Origin: Astropecten irregularis
Taxonomy: Eukaryota; Echinodermata; Asteroidea; Paxillosida; Astropectinidae
DNA length: 64,000 nucleotides
Assembly (NCBI GenBank): GCA_963971285.1
Contig: OZ020253.1
Coordinates: 18,798,528 to 18,862,527, forward strand
Direction: 5' to 3'
The notes below the pieces were generated by a model. It worked only from the letters and a program-made list of their open reading frames with translations. It searched no databases and was not told where the DNA came from. Shown here piece after piece: positions 7,927 to 43,571 of this stretch; position 1 is the first letter of the stretch, and each line of letters opens with the position of its first letter. Both the position numbers and the translations under genes were made by a program.

Positions 7927-9195
7927 CATTAACAGTAAATTGTGGCGTGGTTGGCCCACAAACATAATTTCTTTGAGAAAATCAATTTTCTTTCAAATTA
8001 GGGTAATGAATAATGATTTCTTTTTAAGATACGAGGAAACATGTTTCCATTTGACTAATTGGCCTTCACCTAGACCTACGGTCTCCGTAGATCTAGGTTT
8101 CATTAATTCTGTCTACTCTTAGTGACTTACTAGAAACTGTAATAAATACATGTATCAATGGAGTAGCAAGATATAAAGCCGTTTGGTACCCATCACATAA
8201 ACACAACACAGATGCACCTCACGACACTAGATGCAATTCAACCGTACTTAATCTGGATCTAATTTGTTTCTTGCCTGGATCCCGCTCATGTCAATATCGT
8301 GCAGTATTCCGAAACTCCCGTGACATTTCAGCAAATTGAGTCAGTAACTTAATGTACGCCGTTCGTTAGCCTCCTAACGAATTAAACAATATTGATTTAT
8401 TTTTTCTACTCATTCCCCTCCCGACCGGCTGGAGGATTAATTAACGACCGGTCTCTGTGGATTCGGTCTTGTTTAAGCCATCCATGACTCTGGTTTTATC
8501 AACAAACCAGACCTGCTTCTGTTGTTTTTTTCTGTCCGAGACAAGTTTTTACCCTGGAAAAATTTGAACCTGGGAAATGAATTTTATTCCATTAACTGCT
8601 TCATGCAGGTATTGACTCGTATCAATGCAATGAAGTTGGGCAGGTGTAGGCCCTACTTTAATTGGGCATAATTCGTGTTGATGTAATTGTTTTCTGTTTA
8701 TGTATGACATGTAAATGTACCATCCACAACGATGCAGGGTACAAGTGTTCGCAGGAAGTCATTATGGGAGTGTGGGGGGGGGGGGGGGGGAGGTGGTTAC
8801 CCATCTGGTTTAAGTTGGGAATTTAAAGTGAAAGGCCAAGTGGAGAGACAACGCAGTTGCACAAACTTAGTCATGAAGTGATGAAAGCCACATTGAATTA
8901 TGAAATCAGAAAAATGAAGAAGAACACAAAAATAGCCAAAACAATACAACAAAGTTCGAACATACATGTAGCACTTTCGCATATTTCTGTCAGTTGTTGG
9001 GAAGGCATTGGCAAGTCATGTAGGCGTGTATTTCTATGTTTCATCCGCCCTGGCTGCAGTTCCCTCTCTTCTTGCTTGCTGACATTCCTCTGTGGCCTAA
9101 TTATAGGCCTAAACAAGACTTGAACTGAAGCTATGCATGGACGGTGGAAACTTGGTAGGTTTGCGGTACGACCCCATGCATGGAGGTTATCTGTT

Positions 9196-9290
9196 CTGTG
9201 AGAATGTGTGGTTCTGAGAAGAACCGGTGGTATTATCTCGACGTTTCAAACAACGTGCTCTGTTCGTCCTACAGAGAGTGACTGGTTGCC
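9196..9290 (-). repeat. Covarying hairpin motif, copy 1
   Basis: Minus strand: stem GAACA and TGTTT around the loop GAGCACGT, then GAAACGTCGAG. It is followed by a second small hairpin (GGTTCT...AGAACC). Confidence 0.5.
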
Positions 9291-20369: not shown

Positions 20370-20505
20370 GTGAACAAAGACAAATTGACTGGAGCAGGAT
20401 TTGAACCAGCGACCTCCGGATATTGTACCGGTGCTCTTACCAACTGAGCCATCCAGCCCTATGTTGGCGGTGTCCCTAATAGTAAATTATCTTTGTTTGT
20501 TTGGC
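20370..20505 (-). repeat. SINE-1 (tRNA-derived), best-preserved head
   Basis: Read on the minus strand it has an A box (TGGCTCAGTTGG) and a perfect B box (GGTTCAAATCC), with a CCGG...CCGG anticodon-like stem between them. The leader (CTATTAGGGACACCGCCAAC) precedes the head. It cannot be folded into a full tRNA because the acceptor ends do not pair. Confidence 0.75.
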
Positions 20506-23092: not shown

Positions 23093-24110
23093 GATAAACT
23101 GCTGCAAACTGCTCATCAGCCAAAATAATGACCTGAAGTATAGGATGCTCATAGTTAGGAGGTTGTGCTGTTTGGATCCCAGCAGGATCTTTTTCAAAGT
23201 TGGCATTATTAATCCTAGCAGGATCTTTCTCAAAGTCTTAGACCAAGACATGTTGGTCCTAGCAGGATCTTTCTCAAAACCTTTGACATATCAGTCCTAG
23301 TAGGATCTTATTCAAAACCGTAGACATTTTGGTCCAAGCAGGATCTTTCTCAAAACCTTAGACATTTTGGTCCAAGCAGGATCTTTCTCAAAACCTTAGA
23401 CATGTTGGTCCAAGCAGGATCTTTCTTTAAAACCTTAGACATTTTGGTCCAAGCAGGTTCTTTCTCAAAACCTTAGACATTTTGGTCCGAGCAGGATCTT
23501 TCTCAAAACTTAGACGTGTTGGTCCTAGCAGGATATTTTTCAAAACCTAGACATGTTGGTCCAAGCAGGAGCTTTCTCAAAGCCTTCTTGACATGTTGGT
23601 CCTAGCAGGATATTTTTCAAAACCTAGACATGTTGGTCCAAGCAGGAGCTTTCTCAAAGCCTTCTTGACATGTTGGTCCTAGCAGGATATTTTTCAAAAC
23701 CTAGACATGTTGGTCCTAGCAGGATCTTTCTCAAAACCTAGACATGTTGGTCCTAGCAGGATCTTTCTCAAAGCCTTCTTGACATGTTGGTCCTAGCAGG
23801 ATCTTTCTCAAAGCCTTCTTGACATGTTGGTCCTAGCGGGATATTTTTCAAAACCTAGACATGTTGGTCCTAGCAGGATCTTTCTCAAAGCCTTCTTGAC
23901 ATGTTGGTCCTAGCAGGATCTTTCTCAAAACTTAGACATGTTGGTCCTAGTAGGATCTTTCTCAAAGCCTTCTTGACATGTTGGTCCTAGCTGGATCTTT
24001 CTCAAAGCCTTCTTGACATGTTGGTCCTAGCTGGATCTTTCTCAAAGCCTTCTTGACATGTTGGTCCTAGCTGGATCTTTCTCCAAGCCTCCTTTCCCTG
24101 AGCATTATTA
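23093..24110. repeat. Family A element expanded into a minisatellite
   Basis: Starts with the family A tail in reverse (AAACTGCTGCAAACTGCTCA, then ATAATGACCTGAA) and the arm TTAGGAGG. It then holds about 24 tandem units of 36-42 bases from about 23160 to 24105. A typical unit reads GACATGTTGGTCCTAGCAGG then ATCTTTCTCAAAGCCTTCTT. At 23513-23700 two variants alternate, giving a roughly 77-base higher-order repeat. The unit is the internal GATCCTAGCAGGATCTTTCTC segment present once or twice in other copies. Confidence 0.85.
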
Positions 24111-24576
24111 ATCTAGCCTAGGATTTGTTTGCATGGTTCTTATTTTATTGATATGCTGTACATTTACAAATTCCTCAGCCTAGCCTTAAGGTTAACATTT
24201 ATGGGAACTTTTATTGTCGTTATCGGGCATCGACTCTGAATTTTATTGGAATGTCAACTAAAGTCACATACTCACATTCTAGCATGACTACAGACAAACA
24301 TTGTTAACATCACACTCACATGAGAGTGTTGTTTTCTAGATAACCTTATATCTGCTATCAGCAGACTGGTCACAGCTCGGCTCCCAGGCCAGCAATTGTT
24401 TAAAATTCACAACACGTCCCTGAAAATCCAGACACTTTTGTCATTGTGTGCGTGTGTGTGTTTTGCAGTATGTGGAAATGTCAGGCTTTTGTGAGCATTT
24501 CTGCCATGAGCTGCTGTTTCAACCTCCCCCCCTCTCAACTAATTGGAGGTAAATACGTTGTATGTCAGATGCAGGT

Positions 24577-26703
24577 GGGCATTTCCATGAAAATAGGGAC
24601 ATGGCCTTAAAAATTGAAATGGCATTTCTCATTCCAAATGTCATCTTAACTTGTTGTACATAACCCAAAGTGTATGGAAACGACAAACATTTTTCAAATT
24701 TATTTCCCATTCCCCCCAAAAATCATGAATACCTCTGTGATACTCTCCGCCCAAATATTGTGTTAAAATAGTGCAAATATAACAACCAGTCATTTGCTTT
24801 ATTTGCTAGTCAGTATTCAATGGAATTATTCACTTTTGTATTGTCAGATATGTAACCTTTCATATCCAAGTAATTGTATTTATTCATCTTGCTCATAGAA
24901 GTTAGCAGAAAATCTTAAAATTGGTCTTTCGGGCTATGTAACGTAAGTTACCAAAACATGCATTTTTTCACATCACACATTTATTTGTTGGATTTGAAAT
25001 CTGGCAATTATTTTTCTCCTCCTTCTAAGCGTCACAAATAAAATAGAAACCATGGAAAATACCAAGATGTACCCACATAGGAAAAAATAGCTGCCAAAAT
25101 CTGTAACGTAAGTTACCGTGTAACGAAAGTTACCCAAACGTAACGTAAGTTACTGTCCCAAACCTAAGCATACGTGTATATAATGCTCATGACTTGCATT
25201 AAACTTAATAAATAGCAACATAAAACAATAGAAGGCAGTGTTTAGAGTAGATTTCCCCCTCAATGTAACCAATTTACTGTTACTTCAAACATGTTTTCTA
25301 TTTTTAGAACACATACGTAGAAAATGTGTACATGGAACATGTATGTATGTAATGATTATCACTAAGACAAGAACTGTTTTTCGGCTTATGACAGCTTCTA
25401 GCTTCTTTTCATAAATTTCCTGCTTTGGTGAGTAAGAAATTTCATGTATTGTACAATTATGCTGTATACAAATTCATTATCTTGCACTTTTAATTATTAT
25501 TTGGGGATGATTTAGCATAAAGGATAGTTTTATATCCTATGTAATTTTTTTTTGGGGGGGGGGCATTTAAATTCAGGGTAATTTGTTAACAATTCAATCA
25601 CATTTTGTCATCAAATGTCTTTAGTAGATTCAGCACATCTTTTTCAATACATTTGAAAACAAATCTTAAATTTCAAATGTCAGTTTTTCTTTTCTTTCTA
25701 CAGAGCCAAAATACCTCCAAGTAAGCATGCTTAATTATCAAGCACTAAAAAGCCCAGTGTGGAAATTACAACAAGAGGCAAGCTGCTCATGTATGGAAAT
25801 GTGCCAATATGAAAGAGAGAGGAATGGGTCTTAACATGTTCCAGGGCTAAAAGAAAGAGCATAGAGAGGAGAGAGACAACCAGGCAGTGAAATTGCTACA
25901 AATTGTGACGACTTATAGAGGAGATACTGAGAAGGCCTAGAACAAATGCAATGCCCATGGGAAAGCCACTGCACAAGCTCAATACCTGGTGAATGCAGTA
26001 TTCGGCAATGGGACATTTATGTTTTTCAGGAATCTTTTTAAATACTTGTATAAACTAATTGTACATGACCATGTCAGTGAACGACAGGTTCACATGCGCA
26101 TACTACATAATAATATCCATTTTAAATTCAATTTCTTTTAAAATTAAGTTTCCACTCAATATTTTATGCAAATTTAATTGCCATCATATGTCAAGAAGAC
26201 ATTAAAATTAATTTTGCCAGGAAAAGCAATTTGATTTTAAATAAAATTTGTGAATTCAAAGCATTTCATGCAGTTTGTTGTTGAATGGACAAACTGTAAC
26301 GTAAGTTACCGTAACGTAAGTTACCGCTATTTTAGGTTATATCACCAAAATCGTAAAATGGATTTTCCTTCATACCCTATTTATTACTAGTTAACATGCC
26401 AACAAACAAACAGCATTTATTAATTTTATTATTCCATGTGCAGTATGAGGAGACTTTTAAATCTAGTCTTTCCAAAAATAACGTATGTCCTTTTCATGTA
26501 ACGTAAGTTACCAAAGTTTGAACCATTGTCACTCAAAGAAAAAAAAAAGCTTTCTAGTTTGTTTTCATATGTTCCACCAACCTATGTTATAGTGTTCAAA
26601 TAATAAAAAGTCTGACAGTTGAAACTTATGCAATCAGTTGTGAGAGTCATTTGAGTGTACTAAAACCCCTAAAAATGTAACGAAAGTTACCGTGGAAATG
26701 CCC
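24577..26703. mobile_element. Family D 2.1-kb element with eight palindromic 15-mers
   Basis: Starts GGGCATTTCCATG and ends CGTGGAAATGCCC, so its ends are short inverted repeats. A 4-bp direct repeat AGGT flanks it (24573-24576 and 26704-26707). Inside are eight copies of GTAACGTAAGTTACC or a one-base variant: 24938, 25103, 25120, 25140, 26296, 26311, 26498 and 26677. They are clustered toward both ends. No coding region is present, so it is a non-autonomous DNA transposon. The 4-bp target site fits groups such as Sola, Chapaev or Ginger; the group is not decided. Confidence 0.75.
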
Positions 26704-29249
26704 AGGTCGTTCACCTCAGCTTGCCTTCGCTGTCTTGTATAAGAAACACTTAAAGAGTGATTCATCGCATTAAAAACAAATTAAACAACCTTTCCGGAAC
26801 CCTGGACATACATGTACATGTGCATTGTTGGTCTGTAAAAAGAATTCTTGTGCGTGTGAAATCCATATAGGCCTACATGTACAGTAAGTCTACAACATAA
26901 ATGAAAATGTATACATGTATACTGTATTCCATGGATCTAGTACATCACGACACAGTCTGACACTGACAGTAGTTGGCATCATGCAGTTAAGTCACATTTG
27001 TTTGGCCATTCTCTTAACTCAGTGTCGTTTTTCTTTTTTCTTTTTTATTTGAGAATGACAACTTTTAGTTTTAATCTCTATCTCAGTTTAGGCCTATATC
27101 TTTGTCAACTTTTGTATTGTACTGGGTTTGGAATTAAGATCAAATGGGAGACTTTGGAGTTCTGTCTTCGACTTGATAGCGCACGCGCACAACAACACAT
27201 ATGCATGCTAACAATTGCGTGCGCATGCTCAGAGCTAGCAAAAAGAGACTTCAGTCTGCTGCAGCCAACGTCTAAAAAGTCTCCCATTCAGAATTTAACA
27301 CCAGCTTCATGTGTATCCACCTATCTCTTTTTGTTGAATTATTAGAAAGAATTTACTAAAAAAAAAACCACCACTTCATCTACCAACTTCGGGGCCAAAT
27401 TTCATTGCTTTCCAAACCAAATTGAACACCGTGTCAACGGGGTGTTAAAATCTTACAGTGTGAACACTGATCAAGACAGTCACTTTTATACGGGTCAGAC
27501 CTTACCCATGTACAACCAGGGAGATATTTTTGTAGTGTGAAAAGGTCTGATGACCTAGGAGCTTGACTTCCTAGCTCCTTTGGTATGAGGGAGGGAGGGG
27601 GATGGAGGGGGGTTGAACAGGTTTGGTCAGCCTGGAGGCCAGTGCACAAGGCATTGCTAATTAGCAACATACCATCATGGTTTCACTTGTCCTCTAGTCT
27701 AAACATGCCTAGCCTGTGACCTCACGCCAGGCCATACATTGATGATGATGACATCTTCATCATCTTGTCAACCTCCTAAGGTAACCCCATCCAGCCAGTA
27801 ACCCCCACCATGTACCAGTGGCTCCAGGTTTCACTTTCCTGTTTGGGCTAGGTTGGTCTGGTTGGTTGCAGGCTTGACTAGACTTCATTCAAGTCTGAAA
27901 GTTGGCTGTCCATTGGCTGCAGTACATGTGATCCACTGATTGCTTTTTGATGAGTTGAGATACACGTACTGTAGGCTAATAACACCAATAATCAAGGATG
28001 AGTACTGAGGGAAACATTCCCTTTACTGAGTCACTGAGTGATCTATTTTTATTAACATTCTCCAAACCAATGAACTTGAAATTGACATACATGTATGTTC
28101 ATAATGAGAGCATTCTCTGTCTTCTACATGTATTAAAATATGGACATTAAAATTGTGTCTTTAAAACTACAGCTGATACCTTAGGGAGATAAGAAAGTGC
28201 TAGTCTCCCTAACTTCAGATGTCTCCTGAATGTTCACTTTCAGACGTTTAAATACATATTATGGGTCAGCATTGATGATGATTTTATACTTTTTCTTGTA
28301 AAACGTCAAGCGATTAGCCTACCTAACCTACCTGTGACATTTTAGAAAATCCTCAGCCACTATGTACCTACTTTTTATTTTTTTAAGATTATAGAGCCCC
28401 CAAAACTGGGCACCCTCTGCTTGCTTAGCACTGGGGTAGTATTTGGATACCCTTTACAATACTTGTGCTTGAACTTGAAGTAGTTGGATAAAATATAGAA
28501 TCATGACCTGAAGCCACAGCCAAAGCTGATTGCTTTGAAAAGGGCCGTAGAATTGCAACACTTCTGTCTCGATATGTCAAAAACCCTGACAGATGTCCCC
28601 TAGTTGGACAACCTCCCCTGGTGGGACAATAAATTCATTTCAAGTCTAATCATCTTTGCAATGACCATGTGGCCCAGTGCGATGGTAACTGGAGTAAAGT
28701 TTTCAAGCCTTGAATCAAGCCTATTCCAAGTCACCTTGTGACTTCAGCCAGTCCAGCATTCTTAGCATGCCATACAGTCTTGAGATGTTGCTCATGTTTA
28801 AACTGGAATCAAGGCACTGTGCAGGCAAGGTTATACTGTGGCCTGTTTGCTGCCCTAAGGGCAGGGCTCTCTAGTTGATATTCTCACTCCCAAGAATGTT
28901 AAAAATAGCCAATTTGTACACATTGCTCACTTGGAATGCATGGTCTATGTGTAATATCACCCCTCATGAAACCCAAAGCCAAAATAAAAAGTTTAGTACA
29001 TGCTAAGAATTAAAATTAACTGAATGATATTAATAAGTAGGCCTATATGTAGGGCCTAGGGTATAATACAATGTATAAGTTAATTGATGTTTCAATTCTC
29101 AAGTGTTGATGAACAGGTCAACTTCTCTAGTTGAGTGAAGTAAAGCTTGAGTTTGGTTCCACTTGTCACCCACTTGACTAACCATGAAGCTCCTCCGTGG
29201 GCTTTACTTTACCTTATTACCATAGATAAGATCCATCATTGTTTAGTTG

Positions 29250-36284: not shown

Positions 36285-36719
36285 GGACATTTCCACGGAT
36301 TGATGTCTATTTTGTAACGTACCTCTTTGATTTGCATAATTATTTGCATGCATTTCAAGGAACCATAAGTTATTATTTATTCATTTCTGGTAATGACACC
36401 AAGGATTCCTCAAAAGCACCCTAGGCACTGTAGCTCGCAAGCCTGATGAAACCTTTTATGGAAAGATGATGAGAAGAAGATTCAGTTTTAGAGGTGGGAG
36501 GAAAACCCCAGAGTAATATTCTGGGTAAAACCCACAGTATCAGGTAGGGAGTGAAAAGCCAATCCACTTGTGAACCGAGCCGGACTTGAACCCGGTCCAC
36601 AGAGGTGAAAGGCGAGGAAAGAGCCGCTACGCCAACACTGTTCTTAATTGGAGTCTTTCAAGAACGATTAATCAAGGAATACAAGTCAAAGTCTAATGTA
36701 CGTTACCGTGGAATTTCCC
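36285..36719. mobile_element. Family D short element interrupted by SINE-2
   Basis: Starts GGACATTTCCACGG and ends GTTACCGTGGAATTTCCC. It is flanked by the 4-bp direct repeat ATTT (36281-36284 and 36720-36723). About 263 bp of it is the inserted SINE-2, leaving a core of about 170 bp. Confidence 0.7.
36380..36642 (-). repeat. SINE-2 (tRNA-derived), nested in a family D element
   Basis: Second long copy of the element at 31783-32049, in the same orientation. It interrupts a family D element: the sequence on both sides (36285-36375 and 36645-36719) matches parts of the D copy at 33988 that lie next to each other there. The SINE is therefore the younger insertion. Confidence 0.75.
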
Positions 36720-37138
36720 ATTTGCATTGCTGAGTTGAAGGGGCAAGATTTGTACATATAACTACTTAATACTCATGTACACAAGTATGAGTAAGACGCT
36801 TGAAACCGAGAAACTTAAATTTGCTTGAGAAAATCAAGTTTGCTTTTTGTGTAATAGGGTAATACATGTATGTACGTAAATGTATTCATGTGTAATTTCT
36901 TACAGATTGTGTGAGACCAAATATATCGTTTGTCTAGTCCAACTAGGCCTAAATCTCAGTTAGGAGGTAAAGATAAGTTAACTTGTAATGTGAGTGAACA
37001 GGTTATGATTTTGATAAATTTTGAATTCACACTCTAGGGTGAAAATCAAGCGATCTGTTAACGTTAAATGGGCTGCATATAAATGATAGCGGACGACTAA
37101 AAGCGTCACTATACAGTGCAGTCAAACGTTATACATCA

Positions 37139-40100
37139 GGGTCATTCCGTGTCAAATCAACCAATATCCTGAAAATTGTTACGGGTCACCTCTCCGATTT
37201 GGCTGAAATTCATTTCTAACAATCATCTATATATATAATGAACATATGCAAAATAAAAAATTTCAACTCCAAGTCGTTTCGGAATTAGGGCCTGTCAAAG
37301 TGGGCGTGGTATCACCCTTTAAAAGCGCATGATTCGCATCATTGAAGAAATTGCGTTTTGAAATGTTCTGAAGAGCACTTTTAAAATAAGATACAAAGCT
37401 AAAAACTGGTACCCAGGGTAACTTGCACTCAAGGAACTCAAATCTGGCCTTAAAACAATTGTATCTAATCCCCCTTTGTCGCTACAGGCAGCTCAAAAGA
37501 CAAATTTATTCTGCGGAACTAATTAATTTCCATTTTCAGGCCCCCCTTATACTCAGATTGATGATCAGAAAAGCTTCATATTACATATGTGTATTATAGA
37601 GGTACATATGGTCACCCCTAAGCAAGCATATTGCTCTTACACATTCAAACAAAAATTGGCAATGCTCCAAAGTTGGTTCCAGACAGAAAATATCGAAAAA
37701 ACGCAGAAATTCCCGGTGACCTTTGACCTAGGCAACACTTACCCACCAACTTGAAACTTGCACTATTTATTTTTACATGTCTGATCTACCCCTGGACCAA
37801 ATTTGGTTTTGGAGACTCTTCTCCTTCATGGTGAGACAGCATTTCAAAATTGGGGTATTTTGCCCATTTTCGCAAATCATATCAGTGCTTAAGGATAGGC
37901 CCTATGCACATGCATGGAGGAAGGATCTTTCCATGGAATTACTTTGTCTTTATTGATCCCAAAGTGTTGTAATATGAAAAATACATCACTCTTGTCAGAA
38001 AACAAGGATTAAATTTGATCTTACAGGTGTTTTAGGTATTATTTGAAGATACATACAATGTAGGGTACACAAAATGTGGGCGTGGCAACCCCCCCCCCCA
38101 AAAAAGTGTGTTTTGTATTAAATGTCCTGTACCTACAGATACAAATCTGGCCTCAAAACAAGTGTATCCTACCCAAGAAACAAAGGGATATAAAAGTAAA
38201 GAACTTTTCTCTATAAAAATTAATACAAAGCAGTGGTGTAAAAACACCACAGCTTTCATTGGATACAATAGGCCTACAAAATGAGAATTAATACACAAAA
38301 TAACAAGAGAAAAGGGAGGGATCCACCTTTTAGGCCAGATTTGACTTATCTGGGTGCAAGTTACGTCAAGAGTGATGTAATTTTCATATTAAAACACTAT
38401 GGGATCAATAATGACAATGCAGTTTTCCATATTGCATATATACATGTATAAGGGCAATTCTCCATGGGAGAGGAAAAAATGTCAAAATTAAATCTGTACA
38501 TATTGAACCTTTTTTGTACTTTTACCAGAACACAATTAAATGGGGAATTCAGATCAAAAAACGAAATTGCCAAAAAATGTAAATTTGGGGTAAAAACAGT
38601 GGTTTTTGCAATATATGATTAAAAACGTGCAGATTTGGTAAAAAAATTATTTTTTGAGTATATTTACCTGCTGAGTTACAGGGAAAAGGTTTGATTTATT
38701 TTATAATGTTACATGTTAGCAACATTACTGGGGGTCATAAAAATATATATTATAAATATATATATATTTATATATATAGTGTAGGCTTCAATTTAAAAAT
38801 ATCAATTTTAGCACGTAATTCCGTTACCGAAAAAATGGCAAAAGTTACTTATTTCACAGACTTTCTTGATTTTTTTTCTTGAAATCATGGATGTTAAGAA
38901 GGGCCCTACTATAAACATGAATGAAAAATTAAAACTTAAAAAAAATAATTTCTTGGCATTTTTCCAAGTGGTAACGGAATTACGCAACGGTAACGGAATT
39001 ACGGTAACGGAATTACGCATGCACAAAGTGTATACATTTCCATATACATAACACACAGTTTAAGTTTACGTGGCCAGAGCATGAAGATGTTGAATGTTAT
39101 TGTGACAGCAACCATCACATTGATCCTACCTGAACCCCAGATGGATCTAGACACATCTCTCAATCTACAACATCCAGTAACCATGGTAACTGGTGTTGTT
39201 ATCCACAGATTGGTACAGTCTTGTTACATTTTCCTTTTCAGAGATGCCAACCAGTACAGTTTGAATGTATTTTGCACGTTGAGCTATTGCAATTTTTCAG
39301 AGTAAAGTATGATTTCTGGTGGAAAAACACATTTACTATAAGTATGACTCTTTAAAATGTTCTAAATTGCACAGTTTAGAGCATTTCCCATGTGTACAAC
39401 TATTCCAAGTACACTTTTCTCTCTCAATTCAGCTGCATTTTCAGGTAAATACTATTTTTGCTTCGAAAAATACTGTTACTCTGTCGGGCACATGTACACT
39501 GTATGCCTACTCTTTTTGTGGGCATACTGTAGGCTGCCATCTCTGATTGCTGATCTGAAATTTTTAGAATTCTGTGCATTTTGATAAAATGCTGTTTTCT
39601 GAATGAAGTATAAATTAAGCAAATCCTTAACTAAGCTTGAAACATACTACACCATGCATTGTTTCCATTTGCGTGATTATTAATTATTAAATCTTTAATA
39701 CATTTTTTAACATGGAACAAACCACAGAGTCAAAAGACATGACCAAGAACCAAGCAAATTTGAAACATAACATGCAGTTCATGCATTTGAAATATTTCCA
39801 TTTAAGGCCAGGACACATTAGAGGCAGTCTTATTTGACAATTTTGTTTTCTTTTGCAAGATTATCAATCCATTAAGCCCGTCCTTATATTAGGCCTAATG
39901 CTACCAAAAGTCAGCCAGGGTAAAATTCTCAAACTTGTATAGTGGTGATGTAGGCAATCCTGTGATTGGGCAAAATGTAAAGAGTGGGGCTCAATGTATT
40001 AGTCTATTAATTGGGCAAAATTTAAAATCTTTAAACCAGCAATTGTACCAGCAATGCAGTCATTACCCGACTGCATTTCACCTTGACCTTTGACCTACAA

Positions 40101-41475
40101 AACAAAGCCTAGACATGTTTAGGCCTAAAATTACATTTTGATCTGTTAATTTTCACCTAGCCTATTATGTACATACATGTAGCTTTCCCCAGTGCCATTT
40201 TATAAACCTCTAAAATTTGTATTTTGATGAGTTAATGTTGAATTTAATGTTATGTATTGCGTTTACTGTGTAAACACTATGGCGTAATTCCGTTACCGCC
40301 CAGCCGTAATTCCGTTACCGTGATTAAAATGCAAATTATGAAAAGAGTGATTATTTTTTCAACTTTGCTCTGCATTGTACTTAACAATACCCCTGAACTC
40401 TACAAATAACAGGTAGTGTCCAATTTCAAAATTTCAGAACTTCAGAGAGTTTTATCAATTTATGCAGGAACTCAAATATGCTTGTCCTCGGTCCGTAATT
40501 CCGTTACCGATATTAAGCTCCGCCCCTTAAAGGGTAATCTTTTGGGAATTTTTTTTTTGTAGGGGTCTATCAATTCTATTGGGTCTTGGCTCCCTTTCCA
40601 TGTTTAGATTAGTTGTCTAGCATAGAACATATTTTCTTGGGAAAGAATAATCCCTGACAAAGTGACAAATGGGCGTAATTCCGTTACCGAAGAATCGCCC
40701 ACAATACCTCCATGTGCATAGGGCCTATGCTTAAGCATTGATGTGATTGGCAAAAATGGGCAAAATACCCCAATTTTGAAATGCTGTCTCACCTTGAAGG
40801 AGAAGAGTCTCAAAGACCAAATTTGGTCCAGGGGTAGATCAGACATGTATAAATATATAGTGCAAGTTTCAAGTTGGTGGGTAAGTGTTGCCTAGGTCAA
40901 AGGTCACCAGGAATTTCTGCGTTTTTCCGATATTTTCTGTCTGGAACCAACTTTGGAGCATTGCCAATTTTTGTTTGAATGTGTAAGGGCAATATGCTTG
41001 CTTGAGGATGACCATATGTACCTCTATAATACACATATGTAATATGAAGCTTTTCTGATCATCAATCTGAGTATTAGGGGGGCCTGAAAATGGAAATTAA
41101 TTAGTTCCGCAGAATAAATTTGTCTCTTGAGCTGCCTGTAGAGACAAAGGGGGATTAGATACAATTGTTTTAAGGCCAAATTTGAGTTCCTTGAGTGCAA
41201 TTTACCCTGGGTACCAGTTTTCAGCTTTGTATCTTATTTTAAAGGTGCTCTTCAGAACATTTCAAAACGCAATTTCTTCAATGATGCGAATCGCGCGCTT
41301 TTAAAGGGCGATACCACGCCCACTTTGACAGGCCCTAATTCAGAAACGACTTGGAGTTGACATTTTTTATTTTGCATATGTTCATTATATATATAGATGA
41401 TTGTTAGAAATGAATTTCAGCCAAATCGGAGAGGTGACCCGCAGCCCCATTGGTTGATTTGACACGGAATGACCC
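37139..41475. mobile_element. Family E 4.3-kb foldback element
   Basis: The left arm (37139 to about 37945) and right arm (about 40670 to 41475) are long inverted repeats that match almost base for base over about 800 bp, apart from small gaps. The ends are GGGTCATTCCGTGTCAAATC and its complement. A 4-bp direct repeat ATCA flanks it (37135-37138 and 41476-41479). The middle has eight copies of GGTAACGGAATTACG or its complement at 38814, 38970, 38989, 39003, 40283, 40305, 40494 and 40674. A second, older inverted pair related to the arms is nested at about 37925-38480. No coding region is seen. Confidence 0.85.
38736..38779. repeat. AT microsatellite
   Basis: A run of ATATAT and TATATT repeats inside the family E element. 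Confidence 0.8.
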
Positions 41476-43571
41476 ATCAATACATGACTACGTAAGGAAC
41501 CAAACACTCAAGTGTAGCATTGAATTCACTTGTGCAAGTTGCTTGCCAAACCCCAAGATTGCGGGTCACAGGTTCAAAGCTAGCCCCTGGCCTTTCATTG
41601 TGACAGGAGGGTTTATAAGACACTTAACCCCCTACCTATTCAGAGCTCCATATGTGTCATGTTGCATTTACATGTACAGTAATGGCCGCTTGGTGTGTTC
41701 AGATGGTGAGGCGACGTCACACCCTGTTGCTGTGACAATCTTGAACTTGCTACAATACTTCATGCATACGGAATGAAGGCTCTAGTAAATAAGTAACTCA
41801 CTGCAGTTACGGTACATTAGTTTAGCCAAGCTGGCCGGGATCTTGATATGATAAAGTACCCCTAGATGCACTTGCTGTACAGTTGATGCTTTGTGCATGA
41901 ATAAGACTCACTCGAGACTCTTACCACTCACATTTTCAATGGGTGTGTGCATTTACAATGTACGGTACATTTTTACAGTACATCTTCCCCAAATAAGTTC
42001 CCATTTGTATCATTAAACCAGAGTATTCCTTAACCTGGGGCTGCCTTGCCTCCGGCGGGTAACTCGTTGCTGATTCCCACTACTATACGGGCACTGCCCT
42101 CCGTCATCAGAAAGTAGTCACATCATGTCATGTAATACATCATCTGTCTCAAACCTGAGATTGATCACGGAAGTCTAATAACCCTGCTCGGTTTCCAACT
42201 TTCCCACCCCCTACACTAACCCCAGGTTTCTCCTGTTAACCCTGAGATCTACATCTTTAACCCTTAACCCTGCTCAGAATCGGGAGAGTATGAAATATTT
42301 GGTTTTCCTAACCCAGCAGAGATGCAACTTAAATCAGATTTTAATCTGAAATCAGATTTTTTTTCGCTCTATTTTCCACCAATCTTCTGTGGCACTATCG
42401 TGCGGCGTTTCTACATGCAACATAGAAATGACATAGACAGTCATTTTCAGATTGTTTTGGCATCTAGCTAGTCACATCTCTGACCCAGGGTAGAAAAATG
42501 GTAGTGTGAACACTCCCACTCACCAAGGATTAAGTCTTGCCATTCACATTTTTGTAGTCGTATGTATTTAGAGGGCATGGGAAGATGGCCTAAAGTGAAG
42601 CTGATAACTCTTGATAACCCAGATTCCAGTTCCATCCATGGGACACCTCTGGGATGGTTTCGGGTTAGCCTCCTTTCCAAGCCGCTGTCTCTTGCATTAG
42701 CCTCCTCCTCAAGAGTCCAAATCCCAATCCACCGAGTGCAAGTCACGTACATCGTGACTCAGCCCAAGTCATCAGTCACGAAGGTTGGGCCTGAATCTAG
42801 ACAATTAACATTCAGGCAGGGTTTTTTTTCTCCATGACAATTCGGCTGGCATTTGGATTTGATGATTTTTTTGTCTTTCTCCAATTGGTAAAAAGCTTCT
42901 CGTAAATTCAGAATTCGTAAGCAAACAAAATACGGTTTGAACAGTTGATGTGTAATGTCTAGGATTGGCAATCTATAGTGTGAAGTGCTGAAGCTCTGTT
43001 TCATAAGAAGTAGTTTGGAATCTTCTTCAGATAATGATCTCCAAAAAACTATGGAATTATCCATAGAGAATATGTATTTTCATCATAATAAAAATCACTC
43101 AGGAAGAACAATATTCTTTCCAAGTCCAAGTAGGAATATCATACAATGACAATGATCTTATAGTTTATTGAAAATTAGTGTGGCAATTCCACAGTACTAA
43201 CATATGTTACCTGTTAAGTGGCTTTGACCTATTCCTTGATCAATCATTCTTGAAAGACTCCAATTTAAAAATGTCTTATTGGAATCAGCAAGTAAACCAC
43301 AAATGGATCCTTGAAATTCATGCAAATATGCACAAAAAAGAGGTAACTACATTACAAAATATCCTAAAACTGTGGAAATTCCCCCAAAAGGAATTTTCAC
43401 AATATAATTTAGGAATTATCTTACATTTAGGAACAAACAATCTTTCTGAGTCAAAGATAGGAAATATGATATTGATAATAATTGTCTAATCTGTGATGCT
43501 GTCTCAATTTGTGTCAATTTCCCCTCTTCAAAATCTCAACTTATTTTGTAATTTTCCTTCTCTCTTTGCAG

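Follow-up and report, generated by a model that had tools for sequence, protein, structure and literature searches.

This report concerns two transposable elements in a 64,000-nucleotide stretch of the genome of Astropecten irregularis (assembly GCA_963971285.1, contig OZ020253.1, positions 18,798,528 to 18,862,527 of the forward strand), which is called the window below. At 37139-41475 the window carries a 4.3-kb structure with long inverted arms and eight copies of a short motif in its middle, which an initial annotation described as one foldback transposon. Our analysis revealed that this structure consists of two nested elements: a 2,249-bp element at 38452-40700, hereafter family A, is inserted in a foldback of 2.08 kb, and all eight motif sites lie inside the insert. 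The features of both elements are as follows (window positions, with the strand in brackets where one was assigned; TIR, terminal inverted repeat; TSD, target-site duplication).

37135-37138: left TSD copy of the foldback, ATCA (from the flank sequence)
37139-37912 (+): left arm of the foldback, a long TIR with terminus GGGTCATTCCGTGTC (from the arm alignment)
37913-38451 (+): unique loop of the foldback, found in its 2.1-kb copies too
38448-38451: left TSD copy of the inserted element, ATAA, the final 4 bp of the foldback loop
38452-40700 (+): family A insert, 2,249 bp, with all eight sites and no coding capacity detected
38452-38463 (+): left TIR of family A, GGGCAATTCTCC, with no adjoining site and with a short hairpin, CTCC-ATG-GGAG
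38814-38829 (-): site 1, CGGTAACGGAATTACG on the minus strand, ~364 bp from the left end
38969-38984 (+): site 2, 15 of 16 letters exact
38988-39003 (+): site 3
39002-39017 (+): site 4
40283-40298 (-): site 5, ~404 bp from the right end
40305-40320 (-): site 6, ~382 bp from the right end
40494-40509 (-): site 7, ~193 bp from the right end
40674-40689 (-): site 8, bordering the right TIR on its inner side
40689-40700 (-): right TIR of family A, GGGCGATTCTTC on the minus strand, followed inward by site 8
40701-40704: right TSD copy of the inserted element, ACAA (ATAA in the foldback copy L009, one substitution)
40711-41475 (-): right arm of the foldback (from the arm alignment)
41476-41479: right TSD copy of the foldback, ATCA (from the flank sequence)

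Two nested elements

The outer limits given by the initial annotation were confirmed from the sequence: the foldback terminates in GGGTCATTCC at 37139 and GGAATGACCC at 41475, with ATCA on either flank. Its arms are indeed long, nearly identical inverted repeats of ~770 bp each, with 94.6% identity over 774 aligned columns and an ungapped block of 731 bp that is 96% complementary. Without the insert and one copy of its TSD, the foldback measures 2,084 bp by coordinate arithmetic.

Among 20 fetched foldback regions (L009-L028), L009 lacks the family A insert and represents the kind of empty site that the initial annotation had proposed to look for: there CATGTATAA is followed directly by TACCTCC, whereas the window reads CATGTATAA, then 38452-40700, then ACAATACCTCC. 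Left of the junction L009 and the window are 98.7% identical over 151 bp, and several other foldback regions join window position ~38443-38451 directly to ~40703. Since L009 carries a single ATAA where the window has ATAA and ACAA, insertion of the 2,249 bp duplicated ATAA, and one of the two copies has since changed by one base. The exact 15-letter motif was absent from all 20 foldback regions, the foldback arms and loop had no match anywhere in regions L029-L062, and the 16 full or near-full family A copies and one short copy described below have neither arms nor loop, so that arms and array do not form one layout and the foldback family is independent of family A. A single 4.3-kb foldback owning the array, with the 2.1-kb copies as its internal deletions, is ruled out for practical purposes: although a block ending within ~10 bp of the start of the right arm would suit a deletion as well, the flanks in L009 are joined exactly with a single ATAA, like an empty site, and the same 2.25-kb block occurs elsewhere as independent, arm-less insertions with its own TIRs and 4-bp TSDs. 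Hence a composite of long arms and motif array seen at first look can be two nested elements. The insert adjoins the junction of loop and right arm within ~10 bp, which may be due to chance or to a preferred target.

Searches of the genome (476 Mb, 168 contigs) showed that both families are multi-copy, which removes the possibility, raised at the outset, that no other copies exist. The 16-bp end of the foldback matched at 330 places, against none for the control, and facing ends, inspected by eye for the 100 of 330 places listed, are 120 to 3,153 bp apart. Exact 4-bp TSDs flank 13 of the 14 two-ended foldback copies, the window copy included (the end of L010 is mutated); a further 7 foldback regions, outside these 14, show one end only. 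Many of the TSDs are not AT-rich (TGCT, AGAC and GTGT among others). By its structure, the foldback is classed as an apparently non-autonomous cut-and-paste TIR DNA transposon with a 4-bp TSD. L020 is an additional, 5.6-kb copy, and no frame of 150 amino acids or more was detected in it. The open reading frames (ORFs) in regions with foldback copies matched a NACHT domain, a sulfotransferase domain or nothing. In L023, L025, L026, L027 and L028 the left arm and loop are kept, with no right arm within the fetched stretch; arrays border these copies, and the offsets in their alignments point to a 19-bp minisatellite. The foldback of the window differs from L009 by ~1% arm for arm, and its own two arms differ from each other by ~5%; thus, the arms do not look kept alike by conversion.

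Family A was studied in 20 regions (L029-L048) fetched around the first listed places of the 16-letter form of the motif. A full or near-full copy was found in 16 of them, while L047 holds a 505-bp copy with both ends and L029 and L037 hold partial or cut copies. L048 gave no blastn match to the family A element; at positions 1797-1992 it carries a short inverted-repeat insert within an old, degraded relative of the array elements. The family A TIRs GGGCAATTCTCC and GGGCGATTCTTC are 12 bp long, of the form GGGC...GCCC, and a 22-mer from the left end was found 56 times genome-wide, against none for the control. In 18 copies, among them those of the window, L046 and L047, the flanking 4-bp TSDs agree exactly in 13, differ by one letter in four and by three letters in one (L044); when one flank was shifted by 1, 2, 3 or 4 bp, exact agreement was seen in 0, 2, 0 and 1 of 16 copies. 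Judged by these features, family A is classed as a multi-copy, apparently non-autonomous cut-and-paste TIR DNA transposon, separate from the foldback. Among the frames listed for L029-L048, no stop-to-stop frame exceeds 168 amino acids. L049 and L050, the widest pairs of A ends picked by eye (~5 and 6 kb), were rejected as autonomous copies, for they carry mid-element insertions and no transposase domain; one L049 ORF scored 14.4 bits against a poxvirus protein family, below the cutoff of 23.4, and was taken as chance. No autonomous partner turned up for family A or the foldback.

The motif array of family A and its conservation

The exact 15-mer GGTAACGGAATTACG starts at 38814 (-), 38970 (+), 38989 (+), 39003 (+), 40283 (-), 40305 (-), 40494 (-) and 40674 (-). 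The initial annotation had counted these eight copies correctly, all of them being exact, but had assigned them to a 4.3-kb foldback; it had likewise seen that three left sites share one orientation and the four right sites the other, but had missed that the fourth left site, at 38814 (-), is opposite to the other three. The near-palindrome it described is a weak one, confined to GTAA-N5-TTAC; the rest of the motif is not self-complementary. With up to three mismatches, the 16-mer CGGTAACGGAATTACG has 10 matches in the window, whereas 100 dinucleotide shuffles averaged 0.12 and never exceeded 2, and its exact form occurs 305 times genome-wide, against 3 for the reversed control. Since the right TIR GGGCGATTCTTC runs into GGTAACGGAATTACG, the TIR has site 8 as its inner half, and the other sites repeat that half internally. 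The array is asymmetric: at one end four sites point inward, and the other four are located ~360-550 bp from the opposite end.

To measure conservation, full-length copies from the window and 15 further loci (16 in all) were aligned and scored for departures from the majority letter; such substitutions average 3.5% across family A. The eight sites show 0.89% substitution, compared with 3.58% at other positions. When the site mask was shifted circularly, only 18 of 2,248 placements scored as low, all of them -8 to +25 bp from the true position. At CpG columns, substitution was 1.2% in the six sites that are exact as 16-mers in the majority sequence and 6.2% elsewhere. Outside the sites, substitution was 1.6-3.0% in the stretches that separate them, compared with 4.0% between the left end and site 1 and 4.1% in the middle; this lowered divergence indicates some conservation of the entire right-hand array stretch. 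Distinct insertions and deletions were densest in the middle, at 95 per kb, followed by 33 per kb between the left end and site 1, and fell to 9.6 per kb in the right array and 7.1 per kb from site 1 to the left cluster.

Related families with other motifs

A wider group of elements shares related ends. The site together with the right TIR, at up to three mismatches, was found at 72 places genome-wide (control, 1), and the TIR followed by GGTAACG at 258 (control, 0). Family B comprises L051 (1,362 bp) and L054 (1,534 bp), with an exact TSD in L054 (TCCA) and one mismatch in that of L051; a match to IP_trans in L054 was set aside, since it lies outside the element. The B motif, GGTAACGGAAGGAC, occurs exactly seven times in L051 and nine times in L054, both of which lack the A motif, whereas the family A element has eight exact A motifs and no B motif. 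The 15-mer form of GGTAACGGAAGGAC was found 14 times genome-wide (reversed control, 0).

Family E is represented in the window itself, ~12 kb from the first element, by the following features.

24573-24576 and 26704-26707: TSD copies of the family E element, AGGT/AGGT
24577-26703 (-): family E element, 2,127 bp, with eight copies of GTAACGWAAGTTAC
24938-25153 (-): sites 362, 527, 544 and 564 bp from the left end (at window 24938, 25103, 25120 and 25140)
26296-26690 (-): sites 14, 193, 380 and 395 bp from the right end (at window 26677, 26498, 26311 and 26296)

A tandem array of ~22 copies of a 40-bp unit (23213-24091) stands just before this element. The 15-mer form of GTAACGWAAGTTAC, a motif that is nearly self-complementary, was found at 416 places genome-wide (reversed control, 6); the first 100 of these included at least four further clusters with family E spacings and many single places, array-less ends among them.

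Comparison of the families revealed a common geometry with a motif that differs per family. At the end with the TIR-adjacent site, the sites lie 13/193/382/404 bp inside the end in A, 13/189/389/403 in B, 13/195/386/407 in C (L061) and 14/193/380/395 in E, the last counted one base further in than the others. At the other end they lie at 364/519/538/552 in A, 361/532/546 in B (L051) and 362/527/544/564 in E; L054, which has an extra duplication of ~185 bp, shows 361/527/549/720/734. B and E thus match the geometry of A to ~15 bp, and random placement of sites came as close to A as observed in none of 200,000 trials for B, none for E and 11 for C. In B and E the motif differs from that of A at all 7-8 sites of the array. 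The C motif is close to that of A, and family C therefore supports the geometry but not a switch of motif.

Among families, similarity in the DNA between the sites is weak at most. In a first set of eight comparisons none stood out (at least 27 of 300 shuffles as good). In a second set, five of 15 comparisons had at most 24 of 300 single-letter shuffles as good (C-E 3, B-E other end 5, A-C 6, A-E 19 and A-E other end 24), which points to weak residual homology and makes a distant common descent likely.

Related ends also stand on either side of the foldback, at 36719 (-) and 43181 (+), each with a TIR that has one mismatch and a GGTAAC-like or similar motif; these are probably members without an array. 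Two further features of the window are Rfam matches, to the histone 3' untranslated region stem-loop at 9186-9230 (-) (35.3 bits, cutoff 34) and to a tRNA at 20386-20458 (-) (53.8 bits).

Role of the array

Taken together, these observations make it probable that the locus holds nested non-autonomous cut-and-paste transposons and that the asymmetric ends of the inserted one carry a positioned array of putative transposase-binding sites. The initial annotation had suggested such an array as the foldback's own; its attribution to the foldback fails, but the suggested function fits family A well, given that the motif forms the inner half of the TIR, is conserved and keeps fixed positions across families. 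We infer that both the array and the site next to the TIR would be bound by a transposase acting in trans or by a DNA-binding partner protein. Through the array, several subunits may be positioned and the two unlike ends brought together before excision, and selection would hold positions and motif in copies that still move. Upon a change of binding specificity, the motif would change at all sites together. An origin of hairpin RNA, also proposed in the initial annotation, found no support, no dedicated test having been made.

Several observations weigh against this reading. In four of the 16 aligned copies the motif is no longer exact throughout: L032 departs from it at two sites and L036, L044 and L045 at one each. 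This indicates that not all sites are indispensable. L052, L053 and seven of the eight short fetches (L055-L062) have the TIR-adjacent motif and no clear array in the examined stretch, L061 being the only one of the eight that carries an array and L056 and L059 showing secondary matches with 2-3 mismatches only; the array is thus not needed by all members. The other-end sites of E are opposite in orientation to most of the corresponding A and B sites, although the E motif is nearly self-complementary. The evidence for family B comes from two fully read copies and that for family E from one, and their shared geometry may be partly inherited rather than selected. Full copies with a transposase, which the initial annotation had proposed to seek, did not emerge: no transposase domain was detected in the translated ORFs scanned from A copies and their relatives.

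As the main rival, a host regulator such as a Myb-like protein may bind the motifs, which would then serve expression or heterochromatin and not transposition. The motif includes TAACGG, which resembles a Myb site, and conserved sites reach up to 550 bp inside the ends. However, the motif belongs to the TIR, TIR and internal sites alike differ among A, B and E, and a host protein is not expected to switch its site for one family only. We therefore regard this explanation as improbable.

Even less credit can be given to a functionless array, in which A and E each derive from one recent master and merely inherited its repeats and spacing. The low mean substitution in A and the weak residual homology between families would be in line with such an origin, but divergence at the sites is lower by a factor of ~4 than elsewhere in these copies (~5 at CpG columns), the middle has ~10 times as many insertions and deletions per kb as the array stretches, and the geometry persists between families that otherwise can barely, if at all, be aligned.

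A bolder version of the transposase-binding reading, which we consider doubtful, holds that the site geometry is itself the selected feature, a fixed docking ruler that has outlived most of the intervening DNA and the motif itself. The steps of ~165-200 bp are near one nucleosome repeat and are accompanied by close pairs 14-22 bp apart. If the ruler were real, it would imply that a whole cis array changes in concert with the protein that binds it, and the sites might lie on successive nucleosome linkers, with both ends assembled on chromatin. The presence of A, B and E in one genome offers a test of whether site spacing is constrained independently of the sequence specificity of the transposase, and of whether specificity switches at every site of an array at once. 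To our knowledge, it is unusual for families to share an array layout while differing in its motif, whereas multi-site transposon ends as such are already known. The listings of narrow literature text searches included no common geometry with an exchanged motif. When the ends and motifs were searched as 9-15-letter text in the PMC literature, the matches listed included no transposon paper by title and the 13-letter end was not seen among them; a family name may exist elsewhere.

Comparison with known systems

With regard to classification, both elements could be non-autonomous members of the Sola superfamily moved by a Sola-type transposase, a tentative placement that may well prove wrong. 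Other superfamilies, such as Chapaev, Academ and Ginger, also have 4-bp TSDs. Sola elements are described as having 4-bp TSDs, like family A and the foldback, and TIRs of 11 to 1,124 bp (PMC10741241), and Sola2 Fanzor elements as having TIRs of 12-13 or 21 bp and TSDs such as ATAT, AAAT and ATTT (PMC3627910). The likeness to Sola2 thus lies in the 4-bp TSD, the short or very long TIRs and the AT-rich targets of part of family A: six of the 13 exact A TSDs are Sola2-like AWWT (ATAT, AAAT, ATTT), the other seven being ACAT, ATGT, ATTG and TAAT. In contrast, the TSDs are not AWWT in most foldback copies, in B (TCCA in L054) or in E (AGGT), no Sola transposase turned up, no search aimed at such transposases having been made, and the excerpts of both accounts (PMC10741241, PMC3627910) describe no subterminal array of this kind. 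Sola is accordingly the best lead for filing these elements and not a claim of membership.

In hAT and CACTA elements (Ac, En/Spm), a short motif is repeated subterminally at both ends of non-autonomous copies, as in family A. Their TSDs are 8 and 3 bp and their repeat positions are more irregular, whereas the TSDs of the foldback and family A are 4 bp. The foldback shares with FB, Galileo, Tetris and TU the long inverted arms, the variable middle and an apparent lack of coding capacity. The TSD of sea urchin TU is ~8 bp, and in place of the ~8-10 bp of TU, FB or Mutator-type foldbacks we found 4 bp in 13 of the 14 two-ended copies. Tetris is described as having TSDs of 8-10 bp, and for Galileo the TIR repeats are reported to contain additional transposase-binding sites (PMC4079207). 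Here, by contrast, the array does not lie in the arms but in an element inserted beside one.

The ends of the Tn7 family and phage Mu, with their TnsB and MuA arrays, resemble family A in being asymmetric and in repeating a short binding motif at set positions, the likeness here being one of sequence layout only. Tn7-type TSDs are 5 bp, and Tn7 and Mu sites are packed within roughly 150 bp. For VchCAST, the relative position of the TnsB sites is reported to matter (PMC10201428). Those systems are prokaryotic, whereas the sites described here, in an echinoderm, reach ~400-550 bp from the ends in steps near 190 bp.

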